64,000 nucleotides of DNA from a bacterium (GTDB taxonomy: Bacteria; Vulcanimicrobiota; JABDET01). The notes below the pieces were generated by a model that saw only the letters and a list, made by a program, of their open reading frames with translations, did not search any database and was not told the origin of the DNA. Where the stretch lies: positions 310,001 to 374,000 of the forward strand of contig JAJYZB010000001.1 of NCBI GenBank assembly GCA_021800275.1. Reading direction: 5' to 3'. Made by a program: the position numbers and the translations under genes. This document shows, piece by piece, positions 3,073 through 44,716 of this stretch. The stretch's first letter is position 1. The number at the start of each line of letters is the position of its first letter.

Positions 3073-5478
3073 GTGAAAATATTGAAACTTCTCCTGACAG
3101 CGAACATCCTTGTTTTTCTCTCCACAGCAGCCTTTTCCCAGTCTTACAGACAAATTCACTCCTCCCCATCTATTCAGACGCAAATAATCGATGCTCAAGA
3201 AGTACTTCAACAAGGACATTTCAGGGAAGCAGCAGCCATTTTCCAAAATATTACTGCTTCCAATCCAGGAAACACTACCTCTTATTTTTATCTCGCAGAC
3301 ATCTATTATTATCACCTTAATGAACCCCAGAGAGCCGAGGACCAATATCGTTCCATTCTAAGAGTTCAACCCTACAATCCCATAGCTTATTATGATCTAG
3401 GAGTAATCAATAGAAAATTAGGAAGAACCTCCAGGGCTCTTTACGATTTCCAGAAAGCTTATGAATATAGTCCCAGCTATAATAATCCCTTATTCAAAAA
3501 TTCTCTTGCTAACATTCTAGAGATTTGCAAAGAACAAAAATCATATATTTCTGCCATCCAAAATTTTAAAAAATTACTAAATAAAAATAAAGACAATGCT
3601 CGAATCCTGGCGGCGCTGTCCAAACTTTATCTCTTAAATCATCAGCCGAATCATGCATGGAAAGCGATCCAAATAGCACTGAGGTTAAAACCTAGCAATC
3701 TTTCAATTTTATTAATCCATGCAAAAATCGCAGCGACTGTAGGAGATTATTCTCAAGCGATTAAGGATGCTAATCAGGTTATCAAATCACGACCTGACAG
3801 TATTCAGGCAAAACAGATACTCCTTACTGCGAAAAACTCGCTTCAATCCAAAAAGATACACTGGTTAATTGGGGTTTTTATCATCATTTTAATCCTTTTT
3901 ATTTCAGCCACTATATACTTCTTTAAAATAACAGGAAAAAGTGAAATGATTCAAAGCCGTTTTATTGAAGAATGGACCCAGAATCTCGAAACTCTAAGTG
4001 ACACTCAAGAGATTGTTGAATTCGTTTCCGAATACTTTCTCGAATTCCTCAAAATGCCAAAAGGGATATTTTTCCTAACAAATAGGGAAGGAAGTCAACT
4101 AAAATGCACTTATACGAACCTAAAAATTGTCACCGAAAACAAAATTGACATGGATCCTGAAAGCGCTCAGAAATGGATTCGACTTTATCATGGCAGTGTC
4201 ATGACTGCTCCCCAGGCTTATAAAAGTGCATTTTTCCTGGCTGCATTCCCTAATATCAAAGATGTTTTAGAAAAAAATGAAATGAGACTCATTCTCACAT
4301 TTTATGAGCAAAATAAAATTTTAGCAATTCTTCTTTTAGGCGGGATTCATCGAATCGGGTTTAAAGATTACATAAAAGAAATCAAAAAAAAGAAGGAAAC
4401 TGCGCACCAGTTAATTCAGAACGCCTCAAGAAATCTAGAAAAATCGATGCTTTACAAATTATCAGTTCTGGATGAGCAAACACAAGTTTACAACAAACGC
4501 GCCTTTAAAGAAATCTTAAATGAAGAATTGAAAAAAGTTGAAATTTATCACAATCCATGCAGTCTCCTCATGATTGATATAGACCATTTCAAAAAATTAA
4601 ACGATACTTATGGACACTTGGAAGGGGACATCGTTTTAAAGGAGCTTGCCCAAATTCTAAAGCAAAATGTCAGAGATGGAATTGACTCTGTCGCCAGATA
4701 CGGAGGGGAAGAATTTGCTATCATTCTCCCAACCTCCTCAACAGAAAAAGCGGAAGAAATGGCAGAAAGAATCAGAAAATCTGTTTACAACCATGAATTT
4801 CAAGGTATTCCGCCAGCCGCCCACATTTCTATCAGCATTGGGGTTGCAACTTATCCTGAACATTCCAAAAGCGATTGGCAGCTGATTAAACTTTCGGATG
4901 AAGCGCTTTATCTTTCGAAAAAAAATGGGAGGAATCGAGTAACACGAGCGCACAATGGGGAGGACAAACAAAATGCTCCTCGACTCTCTGATGCCGCAAG
5001 AGCAAAAGATATGGCTCAAATTCCTCCGTTCACCAGCTTTAAGTTTCGCTTTGAAGAAGAGCTAAAACAAGCAGGCCTGCGGAAATATAAAATTTCCCTG
5101 GGCCTGCTTCAACTTCAAAAACTCCCTTCCCCTGACCACTCATCACAAATTGTTCCTCAGCTCGCCTCACTATCCCAATCCTTTATGCGCGTTATTGATT
5201 TTTTCTCTTCCGACAAAAATGACCGTCTTCTCATCATGTTCAACGAAAAAGGAGGAAAAGACGCTGCATCTATCCTGGAAAAAATTTGTGATCGTTTTTC
5301 TAAAACAGATTTCAATGAGAACAACACCCCTCTAGATATCCGGGCAGGAGTATCCGTCTATCCTGAAGATGGAAATAATCTTGAAACCTTGATTAAAAAA
5401 GCTGAATCTGCCTTACTTCTTGCTGTTAAAAAAGGAACTCTGGTTGAATTATCTCAAGAGTCTTCCAAGACGGCTTAA
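3073..5478 (+). CDS. Membrane-anchored TPR sensor diguanylate cyclase with a second, degenerate GGDEF domain
   Basis: I place the start at GTG 3073, where the protein (801 aa) opens with a signal-like segment (VKILKLLLTANILVFLSTA). An open frame continues upstream to an ATG at 2941 but lacks such features. After the signal comes a TPR array (roughly residues 25-250), a transmembrane helix near 262-284 (HWLIGVFIIILILFISATIY), a GAF-like region, then a GGDEF domain. The active motif is RYGGEEF (GGEEF at 544-548), with MIDIDHFKKLNDTYGH upstream; it should make c-di-GMP. The autoinhibitory I-site is not canonical: DGID precedes SVARYGGEEF where RxxD is expected. The last ~150 residues repeat the GGDEF fold end (AGVSVYPEDG versus IGVATYPEHS) but lack the signature. 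Confidence 0.88.
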   Translation: MKILKLLLTANILVFLSTAAFSQSYRQIHSSPSIQTQIIDAQEVLQQGHFREAAAIFQNITASNPGNTTSYFYLADIYYYHLNEPQRAEDQYRSILRVQPYNPIAYYDLGVINRKLGRTSRALYDFQKAYEYSPSYNNPLFKNSLANILEICKEQKSYISAIQNFKKLLNKNKDNARILAALSKLYLLNHQPNHAWKAIQIALRLKPSNLSILLIHAKIAATVGDYSQAIKDANQVIKSRPDSIQAKQILLTAKNSLQSKKIHWLIGVFIIILILFISATIYFFKITGKSEMIQSRFIEEWTQNLETLSDTQEIVEFVSEYFLEFLKMPKGIFFLTNREGSQLKCTYTNLKIVTENKIDMDPESAQKWIRLYHGSVMTAPQAYKSAFFLAAFPNIKDVLEKNEMRLILTFYEQNKILAILLLGGIHRIGFKDYIKEIKKKKETAHQLIQNASRNLEKSMLYKLSVLDEQTQVYNKRAFKEILNEELKKVEIYHNPCSLLMIDIDHFKKLNDTYGHLEGDIVLKELAQILKQNVRDGIDSVARYGGEEFAIILPTSSTEKAEEMAERIRKSVYNHEFQGIPPAAHISISIGVATYPEHSKSDWQLIKLSDEALYLSKKNGRNRVTRAHNGEDKQNAPRLSDAARAKDMAQIPPFTSFKFRFEEELKQAGLRKYKISLGLLQLQKLPSPDHSSQIVPQLASLSQSFMRVIDFFSSDKNDRLLIMFNEKGGKDAASILEKICDRFSKTDFNENNTPLDIRAGVSVYPEDGNNLETLIKKAESALLLAVKKGTLVELSQESSKTA

Positions 5479-37681: not shown

Positions 37682-38854
37682 TTATCCCTGTTTTTCGAGC
37701 CGCCTGAACTGCACAACTTTTGCCCCAAAAGGGAGTGGAATCATAATCAAACTGAATAAAATGCCCAAATATGGAATATTAATGGCGATTGTAAACAATG
37801 CCACTCCGATAGGAAGAGACTGCCAATAGGGAGGACGGTGGCGCTCCAGTTTCCCTAGAACCCTTTCTCCAAGCCAAAGGCTGACAAAAAGACGAGTCAC
37901 ATAAACCCCAATGGCGAATAAACTTAAAATGATAAATCCAAGCGGCAGTCCTAAAATGCTCAACATTAAAATAATTCCCAGGGTGGGAACAGTCAAACAA
38001 ATCACGACACCATACAAATAGCTTTCCCAAGGATGTTCCAGCATATCATCCATAATCATCCTAGCAGGTTTCTTTAACCACGTTGAAAGCGTAAAAAGCC
38101 CTACCACAATCAGCCACACGGCTGAAAGAATGCTGTGCAGAAAAGTATAAATCCAAGGAAACTGGAGCATACCCAAAAATCGGGGAGGTGGATAATGATG
38201 GATCATTTTCCCCGCCACATGTTTTATTTCACCCTTTACAACTGAGGGAGAAGTATAAAATAAATTTCCCATTAAAAACCCTTTTCCCCCTATATAAATT
38301 GAAGAAGTGGCTGTGACTCTAGCATTTCCCACCACAATTCCTTTAAAATCCACATTTTTCCCGAGAGCAATAAATTTTCCGGTATGAGTTCCTTCTAAAG
38401 TGATATCCTCTCCACCCATTAAAGTATCCCCTGAAACCTTACCCTTTGAGTTCGCCATAAACCCAAATTCCAGGAGGTCCCCTGCATCATTTCCCTTTTG
38501 TTCTGTATCCAGCGCAAGCATTCGACACACGCTGCAGCTAGTATCAGCATCAGCGCTTAAAGCAATAATATTAATCTCTCCGCTGACAGGACCTGTTACT
38601 TCAACCCTGCCCCCGGATAAAAAAACATTTCCATGAACAGCCCCCTGAACTCGGACAATTCCCCCTAATACAAACAAATCCCCATCCACAGTTCCTTTAA
38701 TGTCCACGTTCCAGCCCATCACATACAGGTCTGTGTGAACTGTCTTCCCCACAGGAAGAGTATATCTGAAAACAGCCCTTCCTTCAAAAGCAAAAGCGCG
38801 CTGGAAACCGAGAAAAACAAGAAAAAAGAAAATGCCTTTCAGCCATTTTTTCAT
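37682..38854 (-). CDS. Bactofilin-like beta-helix domain fused to a membrane domain
   Basis: A 390-aa protein. A signal (GIFFFLVFLGFQRAFA) is followed by about 200 residues of short beta repeats as in polymer-forming cytoskeletal proteins: VDGDLFVLGGIVRVQGAVHG, NVFLSGGRVEVTGPVSGEIN, later GEDITLEGTHTGKFIALGKN. The second half has several membrane helices (AVWLIVVGLFTLSTWL, LIMIPLPFGAKV). The layout puts the beta domain on the outside of the inner membrane, unlike cytoplasmic bactofilins. Similar proteins are widespread but poorly studied. Confidence 0.75.
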   Translation of the reverse strand: MKKWLKGIFFFLVFLGFQRAFAFEGRAVFRYTLPVGKTVHTDLYVMGWNVDIKGTVDGDLFVLGGIVRVQGAVHGNVFLSGGRVEVTGPVSGEINIIALSADADTSCSVCRMLALDTEQKGNDAGDLLEFGFMANSKGKVSGDTLMGGEDITLEGTHTGKFIALGKNVDFKGIVVGNARVTATSSIYIGGKGFLMGNLFYTSPSVVKGEIKHVAGKMIHHYPPPRFLGMLQFPWIYTFLHSILSAVWLIVVGLFTLSTWLKKPARMIMDDMLEHPWESYLYGVVICLTVPTLGIILMLSILGLPLGFIILSLFAIGVYVTRLFVSLWLGERVLGKLERHRPPYWQSLPIGVALFTIAINIPYLGILFSLIMIPLPFGAKVVQFRRLEKQG

Positions 38855-38913: not shown

Positions 38914-41900
38914 TTACTGTCGAATAATATCCCAAAAAACTTTCTGCAGGGCATACAATTTTACGTTCTGATTAAAAATCCCAAGATAGGCGGGATCATA
39001 CAAAAAATCTGTTTGACTGGCATCATCAACACTGATATTTCCATTGGGAGCGACTAATGCCCCATCAATCGAAAAAACATATCCATTGGGATTTGCGTTA
39101 ATATTTCCCTCATGACTGTAAACGACCCCTTGAAAAGTTTCATCGTTTGAATTTTTATTTGCAGGCGCATCTAAAATCCAGTCCTGGGAATAAGTGCTGG
39201 TATAAGTACTGTAATCACTGCTGCAGTTAGAGCCGGTGCACTGGTTGTCAGTACTCCAATTTGATAAAGATTCAGGAGATCCTAACATATATTCATCCAT
39301 AAAAACATTCACATTTAAATTGCTTTGATTAGCCACCTGCTGGGACAAGTTCTGATCATTGTTCCAATAATTATTGATCTGGTTATTCGATTGACTGCTG
39401 ACATCTGATGAACTCTTATTAGAAACATAACAACTGCAGCTCGAATTATAGGTTTGAGTGATCCAATTCGAATCGTTCTGTTCAATCGCTTGTTCAATTC
39501 GAACCAGGTGGCTGAGAGGTAAAGTGCAGGCTGTTGTTTCACAGCTCGTGGACAAAGAAGGGATGTAAGAACCACTTGAGGCGGGCGGGAGAATATAGGT
39601 TGTTGTATGGGAAGTGTTTAAACCATTATAACCTGTATAAGAAGAAGCGCTGCCATTGAAAAAATCACTGCCCACTGGATTAATGGTTAGAGTTACAGAA
39701 TTGGTTGCTGCATCATACTGTAAAGAACCAACGGGCTGGCTGTCCACTACTCCTGCTGCTGCAGAACTTCCATTATTTCCCCAATTATTAAAAGTATTGC
39801 TCCAATTGTATGCACCAGCATCAGTGCTGCCGCTTTCTTCATTCATGGCTAAAGCATAAGCCTGCTGATCATACTGCCCAACTTGAGGAATGTTTAAAGG
39901 ATTGAATGAAACACTCCCATCCGCATAAATCGCAAGAGATTGGGTTGTGCTTGTGGCTACAGCGCTTTTTCCCGAAAAAGTCACGTTTCCATTGTCACCT
40001 GAACCTGAGGAACATGCAGAACACAGACCCACAACTGTTCCTGATCCAGTAATAGAACCATCCACAAAGATTGAACCTGAAGTCGCTTGAGCCGTGTAAC
40101 TCCCCTGAGAAAGATCTGCCCATGCGCTCCATGGATTACTTGAACTGGAATAATTATTCAAGCCTGTGCTTTGGGTTGTCCCTGATGCAACCTCAAACAT
40201 AGGACCAGAAGACGGCTGACCCGCAGGTCCGCTGGGTGATCCTAAAATCAACTGGGGAATAGGATGCCCCCCATTATTTGAAGTTTGACTTGTGGCAACG
40301 TCCAAGAAAAATCCACCGGATGAAACTGTAACATTAGCTCCTTGAACCTGAAACTGATAGTTATTGAGAGTAATACTTCCGCCAACACATCCAGTTAAAG
40401 GAACAGCTCCAGGGTAAACAGCAGTAGGAGTAGAACTGGTATTTCCACTGGCATAATAATTAACTGTATTGCCATTAGTAAAAATATATGCCCCCCCTGC
40501 TAAAGTACACGTCCCTAACCCATTGCCAGAAGAACTGGGAGGTGAAACATTTAATGGTTGAGAAGGGAGAGGAGACCCGTTGTTAGGGGAAAACGTGCCA
40601 GAAACAACACTATCTAAAGTGGAAGTAGGAACACTTCCGCTGGAATTTGATGCCTGTGTTGCGCTTGTAACAATGTAAGAAGGACTGGCGGTTTGAACCG
40701 TTCCAGAAGTGGAACCAGAAGTGGAACCAGAAGTGGAATAGTAATTACCCGTAATTATATTGTTCGTGGAGCTGCTGCTGCCAGGAGTCAGCAATTCCCC
40801 CAGCCGATCTGTGCTAGGAAGGGTATTAGGAATTTGCTGCTCAAATGTCCAGCTCGTGCTGCTGGTGCCGGCATCTAAAACCGGAGCATAAATATTCCCA
40901 GTGCCATTATTAGCGCCTCTCACATTATCATAAAACGGATCATCAGAATTAATGTACCATGTGCCGTATGGAGTTCCATCCACAGTAGGAGGATTTCCCT
41001 GACACTCTGATCCTTCGCAAGGCGCAACTGTCAAAGAATTTCCAGCTAATGCTGAAGAATCTTCTGCTTCTTTACTGGTGTAAAGAGCCTCAATTGTCAT
41101 CTGTTTCACCTGACCTCCATTAGGGACATCACCTTCAATCACCAGATAAACAGATGGATAGGGAACAGTTTTCTCTACATAAGTTGAAGAAGGCACCGAT
41201 TTCTCTCCTGAATTCGATAAATTGTTGATAGAATAATATCCAGTCTGAGATAAATCACTAGGACCTGTCTGTAAAGGAGAGTTAATTGACCCTGTCTGAT
41301 TATCTGTAGAGTACGGAAATTGAATTTTAAAATATGAAGACTGCCCATGATTTGCCATACACCCAATAACTTCTCCAGGCTGCACAGTGAAAGTTCCGCA
41401 GTTTCCTAAAGTAACAGATTTGCTGCTGGTTCCAGAATTCTCCTCCACTACAAGTCCACTGCCCCAGGTCTGTTTATCAGTTCCATTAAAATAAATAGTT
41501 CCTCCGCTGCCAGTAATCGAACTGTACTGTCCTAAATTGAAGTAATTCACTGTTACTCCGCCACCGCCGCCACCACCAAGAATACCGCCACCACCGCCGC
41601 CACCACCCCAATTAGGTCCACCGCCGCCTCCATGGTGAGCAATCAGAAACCCAAGACCTGGAAAGCCAATCCATCCTGGTCCACGGCTTTTTTCCGGCTC
41701 TTTCTTCACGCCTGAAGAGCTGACAGTCCCGCTGCCGCCGCCGAAATTGACAGTTCCCCAATTTTGATTGTTTTGCAGTCTCATCTGGGCATAATTCATC
41801 CCGCTCATACAGGCCTGCAGCGCCTCTTCCCCTTCTTTTGAAGCCATGGCAACACGAGAACCATTATAATCAAGCGAGATAAAAGACGTCAGGAGCATAG

Positions 41901-41952
41901 TAAAAATGACCACAATAAATAAAGTAGTTAGTAAAATCATCCCTTTTTTCAT
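38914..41952 (-). CDS. Large PilX-like type IV pilus assembly protein with glycine-rich region
   Basis: A 1012-aa protein, starting at ATG 41952 (MKKGMILLTTLFIVVIF) 13 bp after the pilW-like stop; a longer open frame to 42069 overlaps that gene. One N-terminal transmembrane helix is followed by a secreted body. Residues roughly 100-150 contain long glycine runs (coded at 41556-41640). The main part is rich in Ser, Thr, Asn and Gly, with a 12-bp repeat coding for GSTS units at 40703-40738. The C-terminal ~150 residues (VYSHEGNINANPNGYVFSID, later LYALQKVFWDIIRQ) resemble polymer-like surface proteins. It is the third gene of the minor-pilin operon. A PilX/DUF7305-type role is inferred from position and N-terminus. 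Confidence 0.7.
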   Translation of the reverse strand: MKKGMILLTTLFIVVIFTMLLTSFISLDYNGSRVAMASKEGEEALQACMSGMNYAQMRLQNNQNWGTVNFGGGSGTVSSSGVKKEPEKSRGPGWIGFPGLGFLIAHHGGGGGPNWGGGGGGGGILGGGGGGGVTVNYFNLGQYSSITGSGGTIYFNGTDKQTWGSGLVVEENSGTSSKSVTLGNCGTFTVQPGEVIGCMANHGQSSYFKIQFPYSTDNQTGSINSPLQTGPSDLSQTGYYSINNLSNSGEKSVPSSTYVEKTVPYPSVYLVIEGDVPNGGQVKQMTIEALYTSKEAEDSSALAGNSLTVAPCEGSECQGNPPTVDGTPYGTWYINSDDPFYDNVRGANNGTGNIYAPVLDAGTSSTSWTFEQQIPNTLPSTDRLGELLTPGSSSSTNNIITGNYYSTSGSTSGSTSGTVQTASPSYIVTSATQASNSSGSVPTSTLDSVVSGTFSPNNGSPLPSQPLNVSPPSSSGNGLGTCTLAGGAYIFTNGNTVNYYASGNTSSTPTAVYPGAVPLTGCVGGSITLNNYQFQVQGANVTVSSGGFFLDVATSQTSNNGGHPIPQLILGSPSGPAGQPSSGPMFEVASGTTQSTGLNNYSSSSNPWSAWADLSQGSYTAQATSGSIFVDGSITGSGTVVGLCSACSSGSGDNGNVTFSGKSAVATSTTQSLAIYADGSVSFNPLNIPQVGQYDQQAYALAMNEESGSTDAGAYNWSNTFNNWGNNGSSAAAGVVDSQPVGSLQYDAATNSVTLTINPVGSDFFNGSASSYTGYNGLNTSHTTTYILPPASSGSYIPSLSTSCETTACTLPLSHLVRIEQAIEQNDSNWITQTYNSSCSCYVSNKSSSDVSSQSNNQINNYWNNDQNLSQQVANQSNLNVNVFMDEYMLGSPESLSNWSTDNQCTGSNCSSDYSTYTSTYSQDWILDAPANKNSNDETFQGVVYSHEGNINANPNGYVFSIDGALVAPNGNISVDDASQTDFLYDPAYLGIFNQNVKLYALQKVFWDIIRQ
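40703..40738 (-). repeat. 12-bp tandem repeat, three copies
   Basis: Three identical copies of CCAGAAGTGGAA (plus strand) coding for GSTS-type residues in the PilX-like protein. Unit length keeps the frame. Confidence 0.85.
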
Positions 41953-41965
41953 AGGGCTTTTCTCA

Positions 41966-42745
41966 CTAAAAATTGTTTTCGGGATGGATGTCCAGATCCA
42001 GCTGCAGTCCCTGGTTATTGTTGGCAGCCCTTTGACCCAAGCTTTGAGAATTGATCCCTTTTTGTTCATTTCTGTATGTCACCTCCACAATCTCCTCATT
42101 TACAGGCAGATTAATACTGAAAACATTAACTGGCCCAAGATAATTAACTTGCGCTGTTCCAAAATTAGAGGCTTCACTCAATACAGTTGAATAATCCTGG
42201 TTAGACTGAGGCCATATATCTTGAACAGCCAAATCATACAACCCCTGAAATTGAGGAGGGTTAAAATTTGGCAGCCCGGAAGGATGCAGGATTGCAATAC
42301 GATAAAACCGTCCAGATGTGGGAGCTGAGGTTCCAGCAATCCCATGGAAAACTCCCTGCTCAGTGGTCGCTAAATAGACAATGTATTCATCCCAATCAGG
42401 TCTTAAAGTGACTCCTGAAAAATTATTGGAATTACCCCAATCATCCAGTCCAGCGAAAGAGAGAGCGCACCGATCTAAAGAAACCCCTCCAGCAGATACA
42501 GGAAATCCATTTCCGGCTGAATCTAAATAAGAAACACTAGAAAAATCGGTCATTTGTAAATCCTTTTCTAAAACACTCACCGATCTTTGAGTTTCAGTCA
42601 GCAGCGAATTTTTCATGACTCCAGTTTGATAATTTAACTCCCCCATCTGAAATACCACATAAGTGACAACCGCCAGGATAGAAAAAATAAACGTTCCTAT
42701 CATGACTTCTAACAAAGTCGCACCTTTATGAGTTTTGAGCTTCAT
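41966..42745 (-). CDS. PilW-like minor prepilin
   Basis: A 259-aa prepilin. The N-terminus is MKLKTHKGATLLEVMIGTFI, with the prepilin-peptidase site after Gly and Glu at position 5 of the mature form (ATLLE). One transmembrane helix and a Ser/Gly/Asn-rich body follow. Such minor pilins prime pilus assembly. It overlaps the upstream pilV-like gene by 20 bp. Confidence 0.83.
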   Translation of the reverse strand: MKLKTHKGATLLEVMIGTFIFSILAVVTYVVFQMGELNYQTGVMKNSLLTETQRSVSVLEKDLQMTDFSSVSYLDSAGNGFPVSAGGVSLDRCALSFAGLDDWGNSNNFSGVTLRPDWDEYIVYLATTEQGVFHGIAGTSAPTSGRFYRIAILHPSGLPNFNPPQFQGLYDLAVQDIWPQSNQDYSTVLSEASNFGTAQVNYLGPVNVFSINLPVNEEIVEVTYRNEQKGINSQSLGQRAANNNQGLQLDLDIHPENNF

Positions 42746-43181
42746 AGAAAATCCTTGTCAGACGAGTATATAATTTACCAAACCCAAGCTTTTTCTGAGC
42801 CTGATTTCCCCACCACCAAACCTCTACATTCACCTGGTAAAGGGATTGAGCTGGAGTAGAAGTAATCGGAATTGAATTGGCGCTGACGGTGTACTCATAC
42901 ACCACATTATTCAGATCTTTCTCTTTCTGTCCTTGTTCTGAACCAGCAATACTTCCACTCAATGCATTCTGCAGAAAAGTGGAATCCGCCTGCATTTTCT
43001 GAACCAGGGCATCAGCGACAAAATTAGCTGCCGTTAAATCTACATTTTTTCTTCCGCCATTCAAAAGGGTTGTAAAACTGGCAATAACAAAAAGGAGAAC
43101 AAGGGCTAAGAGTCCGATAGAAAGGACTAGTTCCAGCAGGCTGAACCCTTGAGAACGACCTCTGACCGTTCTATTCTTCAT
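42726..43181 (-). CDS. PilV-like minor prepilin
   Basis: A 151-aa prepilin from ATG 43181 (MKNRTVRGRSQGFSLLELVL); an open frame to 43274 adds 31 unlikely residues that would run through the leader structure. The cleavage site is G|FSLLE and the hydrophobic helix is SIGLLALVLLFVIASF. The body is short and alpha/beta. It is first in the operon, behind the promoter at 43352-43380 and the leader structure at 43269-43324. Confidence 0.85.
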   Translation of the reverse strand: MKNRTVRGRSQGFSLLELVLSIGLLALVLLFVIASFTTLLNGGRKNVDLTAANFVADALVQKMQADSTFLQNALSGSIAGSEQGQKEKDLNNVVYEYTVSANSIPITSTPAQSLYQVNVEVWWWGNQAQKKLGFGKLYTRLTRIFYEAQNS

Positions 43182-43268
43182 CTCTGGCTCTATCCCCTGG
43201 CCGCTTTTCTCAAATAAAATCACAAATCCTCCTGACACAAAAGAAGAGCCGGTCTTGCCAATAGCTCC

Positions 43269-43324
43269 CTTCAATCTGCTGACCTCTGTGAAAAGGTCAT
43301 GGCAACCGGGCAGGCAGATTGAAG
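43269..43324 (-). ncRNA. Structured leader element upstream of the minor-pilin operon (candidate riboswitch or RNA thermosensor)
   Basis: In the transcript, CUUCAAUCUGC (43324-43314) pairs perfectly with GCAGAUUGAAG (43279-43269), an 11-bp closing stem. Inside is UGACCU/AGGUCA, a 6-bp hairpin (43299-43280), plus an unpaired arm CUGCCCGGUUGCCA. It begins about 20 nt after the predicted start point (about 43345). I checked for common riboswitch signatures (c-di-GMP, SAM, TPP, cobalamin, ZTP, fluoride) and none fits. Its identity is unknown. Confidence 0.5.
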
Positions 43325-43351
43325 ATCAAAGCTTCTCCTAAACTCCCTCTT

Positions 43352-43380
43352 ATTTTAACATAAACCTCTCTTTTTTTCAA
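43352..43380 (-). promoter_or_regulatory. Promoter of the minor-pilin operon
   Basis: On the minus strand TTGAAA (43380-43375), a 17-bp spacer, then TAAAAT (43357-43352) with TGT in front (extended -10). A transcript would start near 43345, giving a leader of about 165 nt before ATG 43181. Confidence 0.65.
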
Positions 43381-43759: not shown

Positions 43760-44716
43760 ATGGCAGTTGTCAATCTGTGGAATCCGAAAGATTTAGATTT
43801 ACTTTCTGCTTTTATTGTTTCCTTTTTACTGGGTATAATCCATGGAATAACTCCTGATGAACACACCTGGCCCATCACTTTTTCTTATGCGGTCGGAGCG
43901 GGGACAACAAAAGGTGGCGCAAAAGCAGGTCTATTTTTCTCCTCCGGATTTACTCTCCAGAGGGCGATCCTTTCAGAAATCGCTTATTTTGCCCTGCCCT
44001 CTATTTTTCTCACTGCAGCAAGTTTCGGAATCACCTACATCCTCGTTGGTATTGCCATGGCTGGCGCAGGATTCTATATGTCAATACATAAAAATTACTT
44101 TCATTTTCACTTTCTTGAAAAAAAATTCAACATCCTCTTCAGGATCCATAAAATTCGAGAAAATAAAGCAGAAATGATATGTGACAATGAAGAACTATGC
44201 CATGAAAAAGATCCTGTATTTCATGACTCTTTAGAGCCAATCCCATCAAAATTGGCATTTTTCCATGGATTCCTTGCTGGATTCGGATTTGGAGCTTTTG
44301 CTCTCATTCTTTTTACTGTGATCTCGCCTTCCATGCCATCCCCTTACCTGGCATTTATCCCGGGGTTCTTATTTGGGATCGGAACAATGTCAATGCAGGT
44401 TCTGATGGGAAGTCTTTTAGGAGCCTGGCTTTCAAAAAGAAAAAAATTATCTCAAGCAGGAATCGCTTTTGTAGGAAAAAGCATCAGTTCCTATATTCTC
44501 ACTTACGGAGGAATAGCATTCACCGCAGCAGGAGCAGCAGTCCTCATAAAGCCTAAAATCTTGACCTATGGAATTACAACTAACATTAAGGTGCACAATC
44601 TCCACAGCCTTGGTATTGGCTTTTTCCTCGTGATAGTGGTTGTTGGAGGCATTGGATTGACCAGTTATTTTTATGCCATGAAAAAAGCGGAAAAACTAGG
44701 GTATAAAATTGGATAA
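43760..44716 (+). CDS. NicO/UreH-like integral membrane protein
   Basis: A 318-aa membrane protein with about 6-7 helices. The motif GIIHGITPDEHTWP is like the HAxxPDH of NicO/UreH metal transporters with one extra residue. A His-rich loop follows (HKNYFHFHFLEKK). FHGFLAGFGFGAFAL repeats the pattern in the second half. It may move nickel, cobalt or a related ligand; this is uncertain. The nearest good ribosome-binding site (AGGAAAGGAG) points to ATG 43741, which is in another frame. The S41 gene overlaps its end by 8 bp. Confidence 0.65.
   Translation: MAVVNLWNPKDLDLLSAFIVSFLLGIIHGITPDEHTWPITFSYAVGAGTTKGGAKAGLFFSSGFTLQRAILSEIAYFALPSIFLTAASFGITYILVGIAMAGAGFYMSIHKNYFHFHFLEKKFNILFRIHKIRENKAEMICDNEELCHEKDPVFHDSLEPIPSKLAFFHGFLAGFGFGAFALILFTVISPSMPSPYLAFIPGFLFGIGTMSMQVLMGSLLGAWLSKRKKLSQAGIAFVGKSISSYILTYGGIAFTAAGAAVLIKPKILTYGITTNIKVHNLHSLGIGFFLVIVVVGGIGLTSYFYAMKKAEKLGYKIG

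Follow-up and report, generated by a model that had tools for sequence, protein, structure and literature searches.

A c-di-GMP-II-GAG riboswitch aptamer in the leader of a minor-pilin operon

The minor-pilin operon and its leader

The window analyzed here, a stretch of 64 kb, carries on its reverse strand an operon of three genes encoding minor pilins or pilin-like proteins, preceded by a promoter and a leader (Table 1). The third gene, a 1,051-aa ORF, resembles PilX/GspK in its position, and a related protein is found at the equivalent place in a genome of the same genus (G001, the congener). Just downstream of the pilin genes (37682-38854, reverse strand) lies a gene for a membrane protein of 390 aa that matches bactofilin weakly, at a score under the curated cutoff, and that was not seen at the corresponding place in the congener. 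Divergent from the operon, a 318-aa membrane protein (43760-44716, forward strand) had no Pfam or NCBIfam match at an E value of 0.01.

The promoter, already described in a previous sequence-only reading of this DNA, was found again by our scan; 0.5 such promoters are expected by chance, and the congener (locus L004) has TTGCAA-17-TAAAAT, with the same spacing and the same -10 box. Translation could start at three in-frame codons, for which the anti-Shine-Dalgarno (anti-SD) duplex was -10.3 kcal/mol (GTG 43223), -6.5 kcal/mol (ATG 43181) and -6.5 kcal/mol (TTG 43274), while the GTG aligned to the first of these in the congener gave -10.0 kcal/mol. Judging from duplex strength and conservation, the true start is almost certainly GTG 43223 and not ATG 43181, as had been proposed. 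With this start, the leader would measure about 120 to 125 nt up to the GTG, instead of the 165 nt or so given before.

Table 1. Features of the leader and operon (all coordinates refer to the window)
Feature	Position	Strand	Basis
Sigma-70-type promoter, TTGAAA-17 nt-TAAAAT, extended -10 (TG)	43352..43380	-	Sequence scan
c-di-GMP-II-GAG aptamer	43238..43345	-	RF03169, model 1-86, 48.0 bits
P1, AGGAG (43339-43335)/CUCUU (43248-43244)	43244..43339	-	Model alignment
P3, 11 bp, CUUCAAUCUGC (43324-43314)/GCAGAUUGAAG (43279-43269)	43269..43324	-	Sequence, model alignment, fold
Pseudoknot, loop CGG-UUGCCA (43308-43300) with UGGCAA-GA-CCG (43260-43250)	43250..43308	-	Model alignment
Inserted hairpin UGACCUUUUCACAGAGGUCA, after the loop strand of the pseudoknot and before the 3' strand of P3	43280..43299	-	Congener alignment
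Shine-Dalgarno AGGAGG	43228..43233	-	Anti-SD duplex
Gene 1, minor (pseudo)pilin, GTG start, prepilin N-methylation motif	42726..43223	-	PF07963, XpsI/GspI-like, G001 ortholog
Gene 2, GspJ/PilW-like minor pilin, prepilin methylation motif	41966..42745	-	Domain matches, G001 ortholog
Gene 3, large protein, pilin-like N terminus	38914..42069	-	Weak ComGG match

Aptamer family and conservation in relatives

A covariance search of the 64-kb window against Rfam gave a sole match, in which positions 43345 to 43238 of the reverse strand aligned over the full length of RF03169, the c-di-GMP-II-GAG riboswitch aptamer, with an E value of 2.4e-6 and a score above the gathering score of 40 bits. The element lies in the 5' leader on the strand of the operon, with the promoter (43380-43352) before it and the GTG after it, and it is the single RF03169 copy found in a search of the whole 2.46-Mb genome. 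In further searches of the genome neither the ordinary c-di-GMP-II (RF01786) nor the c-di-GMP-I/GEMM-I (RF01051) model had a match, although the control genomes of those searches were likewise without one. Against the GCG variant (RF03170) the element reached 39.1 bits, below the cutoff of 47.9, and the best-scoring model was the GAG variant. From its sequence, we assign the element to the c-di-GMP-II-GAG aptamers with high confidence. The leader RNA is real, and its kind is already catalogued; it adds one more element to a riboswitch variant family known before. This bears out the earlier proposal of a structured leader of the ligand-sensing type before the minor-pilin operon, with c-di-GMP among the candidate ligands named, while the claim that the element was undescribed and fitted none of the known riboswitch classes considered gives way to a match above the gathering score. 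The folding energy of the leader was ordinary (z = 0.18) and, being uninformative, was dropped as proof of structure; we accept the structure because of the covariance-model score and the covariation.

The 11-bp stem recognized in the first reading (CUUCAAUCUGC/GCAGAUUGAAG) is P3, and the inner hairpin UGACCU..AGGUCA is indeed present in the sequence. The arm CCCGGUUGCCA, however, which had been taken as single stranded, supplies the loop strand of the pseudoknot that defines the class and pairs with UGGCAA-GA-CCG. This pseudoknot between the P3 loop and the 3' strand is present as UUGCCA/UGGCAA plus CGG/CCG. P1 is short, with about five good pairs, its outer part being mostly mismatched in the model alignment.

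Elements above the cutoff were found in 4 of 149 genomes of the phylum, namely, the window's own genome, the congener, a genome of the same family (G002) and G004, which carries four copies; an RF03169 match in G136 was rejected (31.9 bits, below the cutoff, and without the pseudoknot). The congener element precedes orthologs of the window's pilins (identical at 32% and 36% of the aligned positions), although its upstream neighbor is different, a citrate synthase-like ORF by our own reading, which indicates that the leader moves with its operon. Between the two, the DNA of the leader shows an identity of about 80% where it aligns, and the -10 box with the 17-nt spacing, the aptamer, the SD and the GTG are all kept. 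The pseudoknot covaries, with UUGCC/GGCAA in the window and the congener, UCGCC/GGCGA in G004 and Frankiales, and UCGCU/AGCGA in G002. The inserted hairpin occurs in the congener too, where pairing is maintained by compensatory changes (UGACC..GGUCA in the window versus UGAAC..GUUCA), and it is absent from G002 and G004, whose loops are shorter.

One 17-kb contig of G004 (L031, G004:C331) has its four class II aptamers at 537-619 on the forward strand and at 1207-1290, 3532-3616 and 3922-4005 on the reverse strand. Several are followed by small ORFs with a common (E)FEVEEMEERIAP motif, near GGDEF- and phosphatase-like genes, and these ORFs may encode a family of small peptides under riboswitch control. 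In Frankiales MAGs (L008, L009, L010, L012 and L013) the c-di-GMP-II-GAG aptamers form tandem doublets about 145 nt apart, and in L010 two such doublets stand before ORFs that end with a wall anchor of the LPFTG type. Near a contig end of G002 (L003, G002:C38, 326-412, reverse strand) there is a class II aptamer of the ordinary type, with U37, A69 and A70; no clear gene follows it on its strand, and an NHL-repeat-like frame is convergent to it.

Ligand-site residues and the probable ligand

The residues that contact the ligand in the class II aptamer structure include U37, A61, A69, A70 and G73 (PMC7288161). By our own mapping of this numbering onto the consensus, counted back from CCG, the window element has C37, A61, G69, A70 and G73, so that C37 and G69 replace U37 and A69 of ordinary class II. 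The segment GGCAAGACCG reads as G69 A70 CC G73, as it does in nine Frankiales copies, and we take "GAG" to stand for G69, A70 and G73, a reading of the name that agrees with the model consensus. Among the copies read (three Frankiales copies, Fr8b, Fr12b and Fr13b, were misparsed by our script and excluded), U37 occurred with A69 in five and C37 with G69 in 11, the window and the congener included. As C37 always went with G69, the GAG signature accompanies a joint change at two positions of the ligand site. The congener element has C70 besides, which is the GCG signature, and scored 43.0 bits with RF03170 versus 41.2 bits with RF03169. Scores and residue 70 together indicate that orthologous leaders within one genus straddle two Rfam variant families, and this GAG/GCG pair at orthologous loci offers a natural test of variant residues 69 and 70.

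There are 14 GGDEF matches in the genome, 12 of them above 60 bits; eight have intact GG[DE]EF and GHxxGD signatures, so that c-di-GMP synthesis is expected, and the others are degenerate or partial. Nine PilZ matches and several ATPases of the T2SSE/PilB/PilT type were also found. The ligand is probably a cyclic dinucleotide, most likely c-di-GMP, for which the genome encodes several intact diguanylate cyclases; the exchanges U37C and A69G at the ligand site weigh against certainty here.

It is rather improbable that the GAG and GCG elements sense another ligand, such as a mixed cyclic dinucleotide, with residues 37 and 69, and 70 in the congener, respecifying the pocket. Such a shift would be in keeping with the listing of the two variants as separate Rfam families and with the ligand-binding role of U37, A69 and A70 in the solved aptamer (PMC7288161), where the window has C, G and A and the congener C at residue 70. 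However, positions 37 and 69 change jointly from U-A to C-G, which may simply preserve geometry. The intact GGDEF domains, moreover, have Asp in GHxxGD in eight of eight cases, whereas the Hypr enzymes that make cGAMP have Ser at this position. Should the A70/C70 difference alter the preferred ligand, one riboswitch would have changed its specificity while keeping its target, and the ligand of GAG or GCG elements might be some cyclic dinucleotide different from c-di-GMP, a scenario to which we give only a slim chance. Loss of ligand binding in a decayed aptamer, which the modest score (48 bits) and the mismatched outer P1 might suggest, is more improbable still, for the core, the pseudoknot, A61, A70 and G73 are intact, and a leader about 80% identical to that of the congener, next to pilins with 32 to 36% identity, argues for selection on the leader. 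With c-di-GMP as the probable ligand, the leader RNA very probably places the minor-pilin operon under its control.

Translational control and comparison with known riboswitches

No terminator-like site was found in the leader region, and the SD starts 5 nt 3' of the last base of the aptamer, which makes translation the most likely level of control. A cyclic dinucleotide, most likely c-di-GMP, would close the pseudoknot and P1, and the closed P1 would keep its 3' strand, CUCUU, off the SD (AGGAGG). Without ligand, CUCUU could pair with the AGGAG of the SD rather than with that of P1, so that c-di-GMP would free the SD and turn pilin translation on. A pairing as good as that of CUCUU with the SD arose in 36% of shuffles for the window and in 57% for the congener, which is chance level and expected since the strand is pyrimidine rich; the pairing is kept solely as the most plausible platform. 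Thermodynamic folds gave no clear release of the SD upon aptamer closure, and the SD opening energies for the free and closed aptamer were contradictory across transcript lengths. The direction is taken mainly from C. difficile, in which all four class II switches, including one on pilA1, are ON (PMC6366702), and on this analogy we lean toward an ON switch acting at translation.

The same c-di-GMP riboswitch might instead be an OFF switch, in which the ligand-closed aptamer, with the RNA downstream of it, would mask the SD or the start region and lower pilin translation, and at some 3' extents (ext 70) the folds do leave the SD equally or less open with the aptamer closed. Yet high c-di-GMP generally favors attached cells. 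Together with the ON direction of all C. difficile class II switches for which it is known, the one for pili included (PMC6366702), this makes the OFF direction unlikely. Of the switch proposed in the sequence-only reading, in which GGCUCU (43250-43245) alternates between GGAGC and AGAGCC (43191-43186) next to ATG 43181, both sequences exist, but with the start at GTG 43223 the AGAGCC arm would lie inside the gene, as coding sequence, and not beside the start codon. The 6-bp pairing was dominant at one transcript length (probability of 0.96), and the congener has GGGAGC at about the aligned place; with a longer transcript, however, the probability fell to 0.06, in the congener it was ≤0.003, and when the 95 nt downstream were shuffled, a partner of equal length arose in 43% of cases (73% in the congener). 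We therefore give such mutually exclusive pairings hardly any credence. The best joint explanation, which we favor by a modest degree, is a GAG-type class II c-di-GMP riboswitch in the leader of the three-gene minor-pilin operon that turns translation on. The minor-pilin operon of this lineage would then be under probable direct control by a cyclic dinucleotide. Class II variants have been little studied in the literature searched, where a single paper named GAG, and this only within a methods list.

Among known systems, c-di-GMP-I/GEMM-I riboswitches (RF01051), including the cGAMP variants of Geobacter, are alike in biology, with second-messenger control of surface appendages, but their fold is unrelated and their model is unmatched in this genome. 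With c-di-GMP-II-GCG (RF03170) the connection runs through the congener, whose orthologous element carries G69, C70 and G73 and obtains its highest score from this model. In the window copy residue 70 is A, and both elements fall short of the 47.9-bit cutoff. The RF03169 family shares with the window G69, A70, G73, C37, the pseudoknot and the P1-P2-P3 layout, the window element differing by the additional hairpin of about 20 nt between the pseudoknot loop strand and the P3 3' strand, while the Frankiales copies have another insertion, located before the pseudoknot strand. Compared with ordinary c-di-GMP-II riboswitches (RF01786), U37 and A69 are exchanged for C and G, and Cdi-2-4, upstream of C. 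difficile pilA1, acts by transcription termination (PMC6366702), whereas no terminator was seen in the window leader. Nevertheless, the fold and the type of target, pilus genes, are common to the window element and this class, as represented by C. acetobutylicum 3Q3Z and Cdi-2-4, and by analogy the ligand is probably common to them as well.
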